Positions 6,372 through 13,203 of a stretch of DNA of 33,355 nt are shown in pieces. Each line of letters begins with the position of its first letter. The stretch's first letter is position 1. Made by a program: the position numbers and the translations under genes. This DNA is from Candidatus Binatia bacterium (GTDB taxonomy: Bacteria > Desulfobacterota > Binatia > UBA9968 > JAJDTQ01). A model generated the notes under the pieces. That model worked only from the letters and a program-made list of their open reading frames with translations, was not told where the DNA came from and ran no database searches. Location: positions 1 to 33,355 of the forward strand of contig JAJDXX010000251.1 in assembly GCA_022823055.1 (NCBI GenBank), in the 5' to 3' direction.

Positions 6372-6521
6372 CTACAGCAGCTCCCGGCCGACCGGCCTGG
6401 AGTCGATCCAGGCACGATCCTCGGACCCAGGAGTTTCGTTTTCGTCACACTGCGCCATAAGCTCCTCAAGGGAGTAGCGGGGACGGGCCTTGGGCTGAGT
6501 CACGAGACGATCCATAGTCAT
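6372..6521 (-). CDS. Orphan MazE/ChpBI-type antitoxin C-terminal region (49 aa)
   Basis: Hand translation MTMDRLVTQPKARPRYSLEELMAQCDENETPGSEDRAWIDSRPVGRELL*; matches the YSLEELLAQCD...DRxWLDxxPVGREL tail of MazE-family antitoxins; GGAGGAGCG RBS; ATGA overlap with the stop of the upstream gene. Confidence 0.7.
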   Translation of the reverse strand: MTMDRLVTQPKARPRYSLEELMAQCDENETPGSEDRAWIDSRPVGRELL

Positions 6522-8812
6522 CGCTCCTCCTTCATCGTGCGTTCCTCCTTGACCGTCGTAGTATAACGCACCCCTCTCGGCACGGGCACCGCCTGATGCA
6601 CGGTGGTGCCGTGCTTGCCTTCGGTGCGCCGGGTCGCGTCCACGGCGACGAACGCCGTGTAGTCGGACATGAGGCCGTACTCCAGGGCGGTCTTCTTGAT
6701 GGCGCCGGCCAGCTCGTTATGGGGGTCGTGGATCCAGGCCTGGCGGTCGGCGAGGTCGGCGATGCGAAGGCGCGCCCAGATGTTGGGGATGAAGGCGTGG
6801 GCGTCCTCTCCGTCCGAGTGAGGGACGGCGTATTCGACGCGCTTTCCGCCGGCGCGGCCCCGCACCACGGGCTGGCCCGGCTCGCCCGTGAACTTGCCGG
6901 TGACCACCACGGCGCGGCCGACGAAGAGGTCGGGCAGCCGCTTGGGGTAGGTGTCGGTCACCTTCATCGTTCCCCAGTCGATCTCGACGTCCGACAGGAC
7001 CGGCCGGCTGATGCGGTTGAAGAAGTAGCGCATGACTTCCGCGCCGGAATCGTCCAGTGCCAGGTAGGCGGCGGCTCCGCGCCCCACCTTGGCCATGCGG
7101 TTCAGGAGATAGCGGTTGACCGAGTCCCCCACGCCGAAGCTGAAGATCCTCGACGCTCCGATGGACTTGTGGATGGCCTCCAGTATCTCGACCTCGTTGC
7201 CGATGTAGCCGTCGGTCAGGAAGGTCACGAAGCGCAGGCGCCGGGGGTCGTGTGGAAAACTCAGGGCGGCGCGGATGCCCTCGATCATTTCCGTACCGCC
7301 GCTGCCCTTGAGTTGCCGGACGTACCGTTTCGCCCGGGCGACGTTCTCCGGCGTGGCCGGAACGGGCTCCGGCCCGAACTGGCTCGCGTTGTTGGAGAAA
7401 CGGATGACCTGGAAGGTGTCTCCGGGCTTGAGCATATCCAGGGCCGCGAGAATCGCCGCCTTGGCCTGGGCGATGGGCTCGCCATGCATGGAGCCGGAGC
7501 AGTCCAGCACGAACACCATCTCCATCGGATGCCGCGGCGCGGCGTCCAGGTGTTCGGGCGGATACAGCACCATCGTGAAGTAACCCTGCCCCTTCTTGCG
7601 GTCCACGTAGGTGAGGAGGTTCGTCTTGACGCGCCCGCCCGCCACCTTGAACTTGAGGACGAAGTCCCGGTTGGGGATCGTCGCCTGATCGGCGAGCCTG
7701 ATGGTGGCGGCCTCGGGACTCGTGCGCGTCCGGTCGATGCGGTGACTCGACTCGATGGCCTCGATGCCGACGCCGGCGTCGAGCTTCACTGTAATGCCGA
7801 TGTCGTGCCCCGATCGTTCCTCGGGGCGCAGATACCGCACGCCAGTGCCGGTCGATACGGGTTGAACGTGGGCGCGCGGAAGCGGGTGCACGGGATCCTT
7901 GGAGCCGGGCGGGTTGTAGCGCGGACCGACCACGGTGGGGAACACGAACGTGTACCAGCCGTCGCGGTAGGCCAGCGAGTGGAAGTAGCGGATATTCACG
8001 TCGATGCGCTTCCCGGGCTCGATGTTGGCCACCTTCTGCTCGAAGATGTTGGGGCGGTGCTGAGTCAGCAGGCTCGCCTGGTAGCCCTGTGCACGCGCCT
8101 CCCGGTAGATGGCCTCGGCCTCCTCCTTCTCCCTCAGGATGCCGCGGATGCGGCGTTCGCCGATGGTCATCACGAACTCGCTCACCGCCGCCTTCTCGGG
8201 CAGCGGGAACATGTAGACGGCCTCGATCTTCTCGTCGAAGGGATTCTGGAACTGCTGGGTCACGTCCACCGTGCCCACGTACCCGGTAATCGCCGCGTGG
8301 ACCTCGGTGTGCTTGAGCGGAAGCGGGATTTCCTGTTTGTCGTCGCCGGCGGAGGGCCGGGTGGCCACAAGCGCCCCCGAGCCCGGATGTTCCGGCTCCG
8401 TTGGAGACTGCTCGACTTCGACCGGCCGGCGCGCCACGATGATCCACAACTCCTCATCCGGGTCCAGAGGCCTCGCCGCCGCTATCGCCAGGTCGGCAAC
8501 TGCTGATTGAGCCATCAGCGGGGCAAGTGCCGGCCCACTCCACCCTCCCCTTTTTCCGAAAGCGCGGCGCCTGAAGGACCGCGGCATGGGCGACGATTCG
8601 GGAGCGCCGGTCCTGCGTTCGAGAGCGGCCCCGGCGGCCGGCGGAGTTGGGACATGGGCGACCTGCCCGGTGGCGCCCTGGGGCGAGGCCGGTCCCGAGG
8701 GGGCGCTGCCCGGTTCGGAGTGCGGCGCCTCGGGCGCGCATGCCCCCATCGTGAGCACCATGCACAGGGCGGCCACGGTCATCCATCTATCAGCGATTCC
8801 TTGTTGTTTCAT
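6518..8812 (-). CDS. VIT domain + von Willebrand factor A domain protein, probable lipoprotein
   Basis: 764 aa; signal plus CAPEAP lipobox-like region; VIT region (HTEVHAAITGYVGTVDVTQQFQNPFDEKIEAVYMFPLPEKAAVSEFVMTIGERRIRGILREKEEA); vWA MIDAS MVFVLDCSGSMHGEP. Confidence 0.92.
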   Translation of the reverse strand: MKQQGIADRWMTVAALCMVLTMGACAPEAPHSEPGSAPSGPASPQGATGQVAHVPTPPAAGAALERRTGAPESSPMPRSFRRRAFGKRGGWSGPALAPLMAQSAVADLAIAAARPLDPDEELWIIVARRPVEVEQSPTEPEHPGSGALVATRPSAGDDKQEIPLPLKHTEVHAAITGYVGTVDVTQQFQNPFDEKIEAVYMFPLPEKAAVSEFVMTIGERRIRGILREKEEAEAIYREARAQGYQASLLTQHRPNIFEQKVANIEPGKRIDVNIRYFHSLAYRDGWYTFVFPTVVGPRYNPPGSKDPVHPLPRAHVQPVSTGTGVRYLRPEERSGHDIGITVKLDAGVGIEAIESSHRIDRTRTSPEAATIRLADQATIPNRDFVLKFKVAGGRVKTNLLTYVDRKKGQGYFTMVLYPPEHLDAAPRHPMEMVFVLDCSGSMHGEPIAQAKAAILAALDMLKPGDTFQVIRFSNNASQFGPEPVPATPENVARAKRYVRQLKGSGGTEMIEGIRAALSFPHDPRRLRFVTFLTDGYIGNEVEILEAIHKSIGASRIFSFGVGDSVNRYLLNRMAKVGRGAAAYLALDDSGAEVMRYFFNRISRPVLSDVEIDWGTMKVTDTYPKRLPDLFVGRAVVVTGKFTGEPGQPVVRGRAGGKRVEYAVPHSDGEDAHAFIPNIWARLRIADLADRQAWIHDPHNELAGAIKKTALEYGLMSDYTAFVAVDATRRTEGKHGTTVHQAVPVPRGVRYTTTVKEERTMKEER

Positions 8813-8817
8813 TTGCG

Positions 8818-9279
8818 CTATCTCCCCGACCGGTCGTTGAGGTGAATCGTGGCGTGCACGGGTTCGCCCTCCGCATTGCCGGCCGTGACCAGTCTGAGAA
8901 CGTAAGCGGGCTCGGAGTCGCCGGCGAGGCGAACGTGAACGGTCGCGATGCGGACCCGGCCCACCGGGATTTCTTTCCCGGACCGCAACGTGAAATCGGC
9001 GACGATGATGCGGTCGGCGCGGCCGTCGCTGACCGCCTTGCGGTCATAGTAGGGCGCCCTTGCGAACGCCGGACTGTCCCCGTTCTCGACCCCCACCACG
9101 CGCATCCGGCCGCCGGTTTCGGACAACTCGAACTGCCAGGCCGCCACGGGCCCGGTGGATTCCAGGTGGACGTCCAGTGCTGCGAAACGGACCTTCGCCT
9201 CTTCCGCGAACGACCAGCCGGGCAAAGCGGCGGCGCAAAGGACGAAGCAAAGCAGAATATTCGAGCGCCAGCGGCTCAT
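8818..9279 (-). CDS. Secreted protein, cohesin-like beta-sandwich (tentative)
   Basis: Signal peptide MSRWRSNILLCFVLCAAALPGWSFAEE, then FAALDVHLESTGPVAAWQFELSETGGRMRVVGVENGDSPAFARAPYYDRKAVSDGR..., the pattern of cohesin-like domains. Start overlaps the 3' end of the next upstream gene. Confidence 0.6.
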   Translation of the reverse strand: MSRWRSNILLCFVLCAAALPGWSFAEEAKVRFAALDVHLESTGPVAAWQFELSETGGRMRVVGVENGDSPAFARAPYYDRKAVSDGRADRIIVADFTLRSGKEIPVGRVRIATVHVRLAGDSEPAYVLRLVTAGNAEGEPVHATIHLNDRSGR

Positions 9280-9764
9280 AGCTTCTCCGCGGAACTGTCC
9301 AACGCCACGATGCTCATGGCCAGCGCGTCAATCTTCGCCCGAGCGGCCGGCGCCTGGTCGCCGCGCGCCATCCGGGCCAGCGCAAAGGCGTCGAGAATGT
9401 CCACGGTCCCCGAGCCGTCGATGTCGTCGGATATGCTGGTGACCGTAGTGACGCCGAGGTCGGCGGGTCCCATCGGGGTGTACGTTCGCCAAAGAAGGAC
9501 ACCCACCAGGAGGCTCGCGGCCAGGCTTCCGGCCATGGCCCATCGAACCCCGGACGGATGCGCGCGCCGAGGCCGTGTCCCGAAGTGGTTTCTGGCGGCA
9601 TCGGCGATGCGCCGGTCCGCCTCTGGAGACATGACGGTCACCGACCTGTCGAGGCGGGTGAGTTCCCGGGCCAACTCCTCGGGCAGGTCGATCTCTTCTT
9701 CAACGGACGGCACGTCGTGTGCCGGCCGCGTGGAAAGGATGCCTCCGTCGTCGTCACGTTCCAT
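9276..9764 (-). CDS. Single-TM protein with an extracytoplasmic dockerin-I-like motif; possible anti-sigma factor
   Basis: 162 aa; TM WAMAGSLAASLLVGVLLW; DIDGSGTVDILDAFALARMARG at about 9360-9425; lies directly downstream of an ECF sigma gene. Confidence 0.65.
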   Translation of the reverse strand: MERDDDGGILSTRPAHDVPSVEEEIDLPEELARELTRLDRSVTVMSPEADRRIADAARNHFGTRPRRAHPSGVRWAMAGSLAASLLVGVLLWRTYTPMGPADLGVTTVTSISDDIDGSGTVDILDAFALARMARGDQAPAARAKIDALAMSIVALDSSAEKL

Positions 9765-9802
9765 GGTTCCACCCCGTTAAGCGCGCGAGACCGGCAAAAG
9801 GT

Positions 9803-10384
9803 TCACGGCTTGCCGAAATCCTTGATCTCCGGGCTTTCCCGCAGCTCCCTGACCGCGAGATGGAGCCGGGACTTGACGGTGCCGAGGGGTATGGAAAGGG
9901 TGTCCGCGATGTCCTGCAGGGACATGTCGTCGACGAAACGCAGGAGCAGCACCTCGCGGCGCTCCGCGGACAGACGGGCCAGGGCCGACGACAACCGCGC
10001 CGCGTCTCGCTCCGCCGGATCGGTGCCGCCGGGCGCCGGCAGCCGGTCCGGGTCGAACTCCTCGGAGTCGTCCAGGCGCGCGTGTTGGCGCAGGGAAGAA
10101 AGGGTCAGGTTCTTGGCGACCGGATAGAGCAACGACCGGAGCTGCGCCGTGAGCACCAGCCCTTCGCCCGTGGGGGGGAACTTCTTCAGCAGGTAGAGAA
10201 ACGTCTCCTGCAGCACGTCGACGGCCGCGTCCCGGTCGGCGCCGAACCGCAGGGCCACCCGCGTGACGTAGTCGCGGTGCCGCCGGTACAGCGTTTCAAA
10301 GCCCTGGACCGCCTCATCGCGGTCGCCGCGGTTGCATAGCTCCACCAGCTCCCTGTCGCTGCGTCGGTCCAACGGCTGTGCCAT
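9803..10384 (-). CDS. ECF (sigma-70 family) RNA polymerase sigma factor
   Basis: 193 aa; sigma2 region (FETLYRRHRDYVTRVALRFGADRDAAVDVLQETFLYLLKKF) and sigma4 HTH (LSAERREVLLLRFVDDMSLQDIADTLSIPLGTVKSRLHLAVRELRE). Confidence 0.93.
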   Translation of the reverse strand: MAQPLDRRSDRELVELCNRGDRDEAVQGFETLYRRHRDYVTRVALRFGADRDAAVDVLQETFLYLLKKFPPTGEGLVLTAQLRSLLYPVAKNLTLSSLRQHARLDDSEEFDPDRLPAPGGTDPAERDAARLSSALARLSAERREVLLLRFVDDMSLQDIADTLSIPLGTVKSRLHLAVRELRESPEIKDFGKP

Positions 10385-10435: not shown

Positions 10436-10825
10436 TCACTTCCGAAAACCCGACTTGCCGGCCATCCAGAGACCCACCTGACGCAACCGCCGGAACCACG
10501 GGTAGAAAAAACGCGCCCGTTCGGAACTGGATCCCACCCATCTCGTGAGCATGTTGACCCAGCCGGACTCAACGGCCAGAGATCCGAGCACCGTCATGGC
10601 CTCGGCTCCTTGGTAGCGCCGGCCCTCCAACACGAGGATCATGCCGTCCTCGATATCGCATCCGTCCCGCCGCAACTCGTCCACGAGGTCGGGGGCGTTT
10701 CTGCCGTCGATGAACCGCAACCGCCTCCCGTCGGCGGTCTTGAACCTGGACTTCCGCGCGTACGTCCGGCAGTAGATGCATTCGCCGTCGTAAAGCAGAA
10801 AGTCGTTGTCTCCGCTGGAGTCCGT
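10436..10825 (-). CDS. DCC-family (DUF393) thiol-disulfide oxidoreductase-like protein; start codon uncertain
   Basis: Minus frame extended beyond the listed ORF reads DSSGDNDFLLYDGECIYCRTYARKSRFKTADGRRLRFIDGRNAPDLVDELRRDGCDIEDGMILVLEGRRYQGAEAMTVL..., with the YDGECxxC motif. No ATG/GTG/TTG upstream of the motif; ACG at 10825 follows AAGGA. Confidence 0.7.
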   Translation of the reverse strand, partial: TDSSGDNDFLLYDGECIYCRTYARKSRFKTADGRRLRFIDGRNAPDLVDELRRDGCDIEDGMILVLEGRRYQGAEAMTVLGSLAVESGWVNMLTRWVGSSSERARFFYPWFRRLRQVGLWMAGKSGFRK

Positions 10826-11967: not shown

Positions 11968-13203
11968 ATGGCCAGCGGCACGAGGGAAATGTACATCATC
12001 GCCGTCTTCTGTCTGGCGCAATCCCTGGCCCAGATCGGCGCCATGGCGTTCGCGGCGCTGCTGCCGGCCTTCTTCGCGGAATGGTCCCTCAGCCACGCGC
12101 AGGCGGGGTGGCTTTCCGGCATCATGTTCGGCGCCTACGCCGCCGCGGTGCCGATCCTGCTGCCGCTGACGGACCGCGTCGACGCGCGCAGGGTCTACAT
12201 GTGCGCGGTTTCCATCACCATGCTTTCCCATCTCGGCATGGCCTTCCTGGCCGAGGGCTTCTGGACCGGCCTCGTCTTCCGCGCGCTGAACGGCATCGGC
12301 TGGGCCGGCACCTACATGGTGGGGCTCAAGGCGTTGTCCGAACGGGTGGAGGGGCCGGCGCAATCGCGCGCCGTGGCCGTTCACGGCGCCAGCACGGGGA
12401 TCAGCAGCTCGTTCTCCTTCGTCATCGCCGGCGCCGTGACGGCGCAATTCGGCTGGCAGGCCGCGTTCATGGTCGGGGCCGGCGGGGCGTTCGGGGCGTT
12501 GCTCGTGGCCCTGACCCTGTTCCCGGCAAGTCCGAGGAGGGAGCGGCCGGCCTCCGCGGCACGGCTCCTGGACTTCAAGCCGGTGCTCCGCAATGCCTCG
12601 GTCATGGCCTATGCCCTGGGATACTGCGTGCACACCTGGGAGATGTTCGTCGTCCGTTCCTGGATGGTGACGTTCCTGACCTTCGCGGCGGCCCAGGGCC
12701 ACGGTGCGCCGAATGTCCTCGTTCCGACCGTGGTGGCGACCCTGGCGAGCCTGCTCGGCACGGCCTCCAGCGTCCTCGGCAACGAGATGGCGCGGCGCCT
12801 CGGCCGCAAGCGCTGGATCCTGCTCGTCTTCACGATATCCATGGCATTGGCGCTGGCAGTCGGCTTTACGGCGGGGGCAGGATACGGTACGGCCGCTGTC
12901 GTCTGTCTCCTCTACAACGCGGCGATCTACGCGGACTCCTCGTCGCTCACTGCCGGCACGGTCGGCAATGCCGACCCCGAGAGGCGCGGCGCCGCGCTGG
13001 CCGTGCACGCGATGCTGGGATACGGCGGCGGCTTTGTCGGGCCGTTGATGATGGGCCTGATCCTGCACGTGCTCGGCGGCGAAAGCGTGGTCAACTGGGG
13101 CATCGCCTTCGGCCACATCGCCATCGTGCTACTCGTGGGGCCGCTGGCCATCCGCGTTCTCAAGCCGCTTGACCTGCCCGGCGACCGGCCCGGCGCGGAC
13201 TAG
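11968..13203 (+). CDS. MFS transporter
   Basis: MASGTREMYIIAVFCLAQSLAQIGAMAFAALLPAFFAEWSLSHAQAGWLSGIMFGAYAAAVPILLPLTDRVDARRVY; 12-TM-like hydrophobicity. Confidence 0.88.
   Translation: MASGTREMYIIAVFCLAQSLAQIGAMAFAALLPAFFAEWSLSHAQAGWLSGIMFGAYAAAVPILLPLTDRVDARRVYMCAVSITMLSHLGMAFLAEGFWTGLVFRALNGIGWAGTYMVGLKALSERVEGPAQSRAVAVHGASTGISSSFSFVIAGAVTAQFGWQAAFMVGAGGAFGALLVALTLFPASPRRERPASAARLLDFKPVLRNASVMAYALGYCVHTWEMFVVRSWMVTFLTFAAAQGHGAPNVLVPTVVATLASLLGTASSVLGNEMARRLGRKRWILLVFTISMALALAVGFTAGAGYGTAAVVCLLYNAAIYADSSSLTAGTVGNADPERRGAALAVHAMLGYGGGFVGPLMMGLILHVLGGESVVNWGIAFGHIAIVLLVGPLAIRVLKPLDLPGDRPGAD

Follow-up and report, generated by a model that had tools for sequence, protein, structure and literature searches.

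A conserved operon of Candidatus Binatia combining an ECF sigma factor, a putative dockerin-bearing anti-sigma factor, an exported cohesin-fold protein and a VIT-vWA lipoprotein

Gene content and conservation of the operon

In this work, we describe an operon headed by the gene of an extracytoplasmic function (ECF) sigma factor in Candidatus Binatia bacterium, on contig JAJDXX010000251.1 of assembly GCA_022823055.1. The window analyzed, that is, the whole stretch of 33,355 nucleotides, is an entire contig of a 4.3 Mb genome. On its minus strand, the ECF gene is followed by the genes of a transmembrane protein, of an exported protein of 153 amino acids (aa) and of a lipoprotein with VIT and von Willebrand factor type A (vWA) domains, the latter carrying a metal ion-dependent adhesion site (MIDAS), and finally by a MazE tail of 49 codons:

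9803..10384, minus strand: ECF sigma factor, 193 aa (Pfam Sigma70_r4_2 2.4e-15 and Sigma70_r2 1e-7, both above cut-off)
9276..9764, minus strand: putative membrane anti-sigma factor, 162 aa, with a short cytoplasmic N-terminus, one transmembrane helix and a periplasmic half-dockerin (found in 58/58 loci)
9489..9545, minus strand: transmembrane helix of the putative anti-sigma factor, about residues 74-92 (hydropathy of relatives)
9390..9425, minus strand: dockerin-type calcium loop DIDGSGTVDILD, residues 114-125 (alignment with two-loop relatives)
8818..9279, minus strand: exported protein of predicted cohesin fold, 153 aa, with an N-terminal signal peptide (AlphaFold2, Foldseek)
6518..8812, minus strand: VIT-vWA lipoprotein, 764 aa, with a lipobox near the N-terminus and an intact MIDAS (Pfam VIT 3e-35, VWA_3 3.6e-20)
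7985..8317, minus strand: VIT domain (Pfam)
7070..7522, minus strand: vWA domain with MIDAS motifs DCSGS, GGT and TDG (Pfam, motif comparison)
6372..6521, minus strand: C-terminal remnant of MazE/ChpS, 49 aa (NF008463 positions 39-82 of 83)

A preliminary description of this DNA had listed five tightly packed open reading frames (ORFs) on one strand, and all five were recovered. The frames overlap by 4 nt at 9276/9279 and again at 6518/6521, a gap of 5 nt lies at 8812/8818, and 38 nt separate the ECF gene from that of the transmembrane protein. The identities given there to the sigma factor and to the lipoprotein were also borne out, the former by Pfam matches to regions 2 and 4 only, with no match to regions 1 and 3, and the latter by scores of 121 bits for VIT and 73 bits for vWA.

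All four complete genes occur in the same order and setting in six of the nine genomes of the genus, whose members include the Candidatus Binatia records L035 and L036. The operon is missing from G006 and G008, both less than 90% complete, and from G001, which is 99% complete. A profile search also recovered the ECF, transmembrane, cohesin-like and VIT-vWA genes, in this order, in two distant relatives of the same phylum. Bacterial and archaeal genomes were scanned with a VIT-vWA alignment, which yielded 223 relatives, the best 80 of which were kept for locus counts; these loci were picked by the similarity of one gene, and the figures below describe this VIT-vWA clade rather than VIT-vWA proteins at large. 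They come from Binatota, Gammaproteobacteria (many of them Woeseiaceae), Planctomycetota, Verrucomicrobiota and records named Myxococcales or Deltaproteobacteria.

A gene of the 153-aa family adjoins the VIT-vWA gene in 75 of the 80 loci. Among the five exceptions, three lie at a contig edge, one has less than 1 kb upstream and the last (L100) is an additional VIT-vWA gene; its genome has the cohesin-like gene elsewhere, beside a dockerin. In 58 loci (loci with context, hereafter), the DNA upstream of the cohesin-like gene extended over 2.5 kb or more. Directly before that gene, every one of them (58/58) encodes a transmembrane protein with a dockerin loop, and an ECF gene is found within 3 kb in 54, on the same strand in 48 and divergent in six. 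The 153-aa family was not found beside the more distant VIT-vWA relatives L025-L028. As these neighborhoods show, the set is kept together as one operon in several phyla. The preliminary description had named a lack of joint conservation as a ground for refutation, and this is not what was observed.

The dockerin loop, the predicted cohesin fold and their probable pairing

The transmembrane helix of the putative anti-sigma factor is nearly invariant within the genus and precedes the loop in all 68 relatives compared. Under a strict pattern, two 12-residue calcium loops are present in 39 of the 68, including most relatives from outside the window's clade, and all ten two-loop relatives scanned passed the Pfam Dockerin_1 cut-off. 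The window protein and its clade keep the first loop only, with the helix that follows the second loop still recognizable in the alignment, and no Pfam dockerin match was obtained for the window protein. The dockerin-like motif announced in the preliminary description thus stands as one 12-residue loop with two-loop relatives, but not as a Pfam match in the window protein itself.

In a quick VIT-vWA tree, made without bootstrap, the one-loop loci group in a single, well supported clade of 23 rows (SH-aLRT 99) next to Phycisphaeraceae; the two unlabelled rows of this clade come from a record at a contig edge and from a broken gene. The neighbors of the Binatia rows in the tree are gammaproteobacterial. 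Taken together, these placements suggest that the second dockerin loop was lost once, and they suggest transfer between phyla as well.

The 153-aa family was modeled by AlphaFold2 from 58 homologues with a pLDDT of 94.5 and a pTM of 0.88, replacing an earlier model from six near-identical rows with a pLDDT of 57.7. The predicted structure is the jelly-roll beta-sandwich of cohesins, and the first 21 Foldseek matches to it in PDB are cohesins or constructs that contain them, including a non-cellulosomal cohesin from Archaeoglobus (TM-score 0.64). The scores are moderate, with E values of 7e-4 to 8e-3 and TM-scores up to about 0.64. Pfam Cohesin (PF00963) does not match the window protein and matches only 3 of the 58 homologues weakly (best E 0.033), and searches with the sequences of the window proteins against PDB and Pfam returned no convincing dockerin or cohesin. 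Thus, the earlier call of a cohesin-like sandwich is supported by the deep-alignment model and by the fold search, but not by the window sequence taken alone, and the protein is best described as having a predicted cohesin fold. Exactly one full-length copy of the family is present in each of the 28 genomes searched (28/28), with one additional short fragment match in G461.

The genes of the dockerin-bearing protein and of the cohesin-fold protein are adjacent in every locus with context. Only one Pfam dockerin was found in each of the genomes G333, G415, G457, G459 and G462 (G333 is apparently the same genome as G463), and Pfam cohesins are absent from 22 of the 28 genomes. The two neighbors are hence each other's obvious partner. 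A further hint comes from a 3-residue insertion in the cohesin-like protein, present in 16 of 16 sampled members of the one-loop clade and not seen by eye in any of the 42 others; a script counted it in 2 of these 42, apparently rows such as L071 and L088, with the alignment shifted by one residue. The occurrence of loop loss and insertion on a single shared branch is no more than suggestive of a partnership. We infer that the cohesin-fold protein and the dockerin of the transmembrane protein probably bind each other.

Judging by gene linkage (transmembrane protein in 58/58 and ECF gene in 54/58 loci), it is well supported that the two products form a sigma/anti-sigma pair, with the transmembrane protein presumably acting as the anti-sigma factor, given the position of its gene. 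Class I anti-sigma domains consist of four helices and frequently carry a zinc motif (PMC7406223). A zinc-finger-like HxxxCxxC motif is present in the cytoplasmic part of the transmembrane proteins of L104 and L109, and the remaining ones have in common a short segment, LP..L...L......P..vD.aIl, before the transmembrane helix. The anti-sigma role proposed in the preliminary description is accordingly backed by linkage but not by a recognized anti-sigma domain, which is why we file the protein only as a candidate.

Upstream of the window ECF gene, a conserved stretch contains TTCCCC-N6-GGGGAA and TATACT. A GGAA block resembling a -35 element is not conserved there, and for this reason we do not claim that the ECF factor regulates its own gene. 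The upstream neighbor, at 10439-10720 of the window, is an ORF weakly matching DCC1-like thiol-disulfide oxidoreductases; in each genus genome with the operon (6/6), about 50 nt separate its end from the ECF gene, and the gap (60 nt before 10384) carries both TTCCCC-N6-GGGGAA and TATACT.

The VIT-vWA lipoprotein and the genes that flank the unit

In the lipoprotein family, 76-78 of the 80 relatives have an intact MIDAS (the DxSGS motif in 78), 55 of 68 show a lipobox pattern, and a C-terminal P-x-G-V-x-Y-x-T-[TS]-V is common to 70 of 80. The window protein scores 495.5 bits against TIGR03788, under the cut-off of 551.65. No LPxTG-like C-terminal end was found in any of the 80 relatives, and no sortase was found in the window's genome nor in 24 of 28 other genomes. 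Membership in the proteobacterial dedicated sortase system was ruled out by this absence of both sortase and sorting signal. The Woeseiaceae genomes of L040, L042, L046 and L054 have a marine sortase (TIGR03784) at another place, and both VIT-vWA systems may coexist in these four genomes.

In L033 (2447-5775), the VIT-vWA ORF continues a DUF1329-like N-terminal region, with what looks like a frameshift in this record, and is followed by a further DUF1329 gene (623-1888). The more distant relative of L025 (8874-11978) adjoins a divergent sigma-70-like gene, without a cohesin-like gene. The second, cohesin-less copy in L100 (5383-7911) comes after genes resembling ABC transporters, and the N-terminus of its ORF resembles a membrane protein.

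At the downstream end, the preliminary description had counted the antitoxin tail as a fifth member of the operon. We dropped this component, which is eroded and lies outside the conserved unit. In L024, from the same genus, a full-length MazE gene and a MazF-like toxin gene occupy the corresponding place (12166-12750), and L023, also from this genus, has the N-terminal part of MazE only (about 11970-12090). Based on the partial ChpS match, on the intact pair in L024 and on the N-terminal piece in L023, the tail at 6372-6521 is the leftover of a toxin-antitoxin pair degrading downstream of the operon. Substitutions between copies of the truncated tail are still skewed to synonymous ones, over 38 codons only.

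A putative envelope sensor and its alternatives

We consider it rather likely that the four genes constitute a sigma/anti-sigma operon in which a dedicated periplasmic dockerin-cohesin pair, together with an adhesin-type VIT-vWA lipoprotein bearing a MIDAS, serves as the envelope sensor. Through its short cytoplasmic part, the transmembrane protein would probably tether the sigma factor to the inner membrane, and it would in turn display the calcium-loop dockerin in the periplasm. The exported single-domain protein would have that dockerin as its most likely dedicated partner, sitting on it as RseB does on the periplasmic part of RseA. The lipoprotein, made with the pair, would probably be the adhesin or ligand-binding part and report through it. 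Loss or gain of the cohesin-dockerin contact, upon ligand binding, a change in calcium or damage to the vWA complex, could then alter the stability of the anti-sigma factor and set the sigma factor free.

Several observations weigh against such a sensor. Type I dockerins have two loops, each followed by a helix, and the window protein does not show this arrangement, its dockerin being reduced to one loop. Moreover, no anti-sigma family of Pfam or NCBIfam matches the window transmembrane protein, and the strict zinc motif HxxxCxxC is present in only 2 of its 68 relatives. No ECF gene is found near the gene set in L056, L064 and L079, and in L057 it lies 4 kb away. A search for a two-block promoter motif shared upstream of 55 ECF genes found none that stood out clearly from shuffled sequences, with a top count of 5 against 3-5. 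Finally, the insertion and the loop loss fall in one clade and therefore amount to one coincidence rather than to repeated coevolution.

The same gene content and order would also fit a transmembrane protein that is mainly a membrane anchor, its dockerin docking the cohesin-fold protein, which holds the lipoprotein at the envelope, while the ECF factor would do no more than drive expression of the operon, free of control through the dockerin. Most of the transmembrane proteins do have a short cytoplasmic part without a recognized anti-sigma domain, and L064 and L079 have a two-component pair upstream instead of an ECF gene. Nevertheless, the ECF gene precedes that of the transmembrane protein in most loci, which is the usual sigma/anti-sigma order, and stays near even when inverted; the cytoplasmic HxxxCxxC of L104 and L109 is as in zinc anti-sigma factors, and a plain anchor would have no need of the conserved N-terminal segment. 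We therefore regard an anchor role as improbable. Less probable still is a reading in which the anti-sigma factor senses calcium with its dockerin loops and the cohesin-fold protein has another ligand, be it a carbohydrate, a component of the cell wall or the vWA protein. The single-loop form of one clade, the weakness of the Pfam Cohesin similarity and the relatedness of cohesin-fold sandwiches to carbohydrate-binding folds speak for it, but the two genes are neighbors in all loci with context and show joint changes in one clade, and the fold matches are to cohesins that bind dockerins.

A scaffold of the cellulosome or "planctosome" type, in which the cohesin gathers dockerin-bearing enzymes, finds some encouragement in several planctomycete genomes that hold the system along with many dockerins (up to 88 matches) and in the cohesin/dockerin peptidase complex proposed for Planctomycetes (PMC6461901). 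However, the operon encodes no multi-cohesin scaffold with dockerin enzymes: the single-copy protein consists of one cohesin-fold domain, lacks both an anchor and a second module, and is also present in genomes whose sole dockerin found is the operon's own. We consider such a scaffold very unlikely. A variant of the dedicated sortase system (TIGR03784/TIGR03788) is scarcely credible, in spite of the TIGR03788 score, which is below the curated cut-off: the protein has a lipobox instead of an LPxTG-like end, sortases are missing from most of the genomes, and in the four Woeseiaceae genomes that have one it lies away from the locus. As a separate observation, a response regulator and a histidine-kinase-like gene are found directly upstream of the gene of the dockerin-bearing protein in L064 (1080-3743) and L079 (1442-4126), in the position of the ECF gene in most loci, reminiscent of the regulators of the dedicated sortase system.

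Coming back to the sensor built on a dockerin-cohesin pair, one of its closest likenesses is RpoE-RseA-RseB, with an ECF factor, an anti-sigma factor with one transmembrane helix and, encoded in the same operon, a small exported protein that might rest on the anti-sigma factor on its periplasmic side; RseA-RseB is a precedent in which an anti-sigma factor is gated by a small protein of the periplasm (PMC8103513). In contrast to it, the contact predicted here is of the dockerin-cohesin type and the unit includes a VIT-vWA lipoprotein, and no sequence kinship was found between parts of the window and those of RpoE-RseA-RseB. Another likeness is SigI/RsgI of cellulosome-making clostridia (see PMC11557425 for its role), where a membrane anti-sigma factor likewise bears an extracytoplasmic binding module as sensor. 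The modules of RsgI bind polysaccharides, however, and SigI does not belong to this type of ECF factor, whereas the module here is a dockerin whose partner is encoded in the operon. The dedicated sortase system shares the placement of a related VIT-vWA protein next to regulatory genes, but here a lipobox and the ECF, dockerin and cohesin genes replace sortase and sorting signal. Cohesin-dockerin pairs, cellulosomal or not, and the planctosome (PMC6461901) have both folds, calcium loops included; here, however, the dockerin is on a candidate anti-sigma factor and the cohesin is a solitary exported domain, with no enzymes or scaffold. In the open literature searched, the nearest arrangement is the proposed planctosome, although differently built, and we found neither this gene set described nor a dockerin reported on an anti-sigma factor; subscription papers on ECF classification, planctomycete ECF factors and non-cellulosomal cohesins were outside this scope and may hold a prior mention.

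The operon may represent a widespread and undescribed class of trans-envelope signaling, in which a cohesin-dockerin receiver controls an ECF factor, a MIDAS-bearing vWA lipoprotein binds the ligand and one clade now works with a one-loop dockerin and a matching change in the cohesin; for this broader proposal, we find the case evenly balanced. Cohesin-dockerin contacts are the assembly joints of cellulosomes, and to our knowledge most cohesin- and dockerin-like modules outside cellulosomes are without an assigned job. The "hook and eye" of the cellulosome was possibly reused here as a signal receiver. With the partners encoded side by side in several phyla, one of them on a candidate anti-sigma factor, the system allows a direct test of whether the pair carries a signal. 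It also yields a functional hypothesis that covers both a family of VIT-vWA lipoproteins and a set of ECF factors from Planctomycetota and Gammaproteobacteria. For synthetic sensors, a natural binding pair mounted on a membrane regulator would be a useful component.

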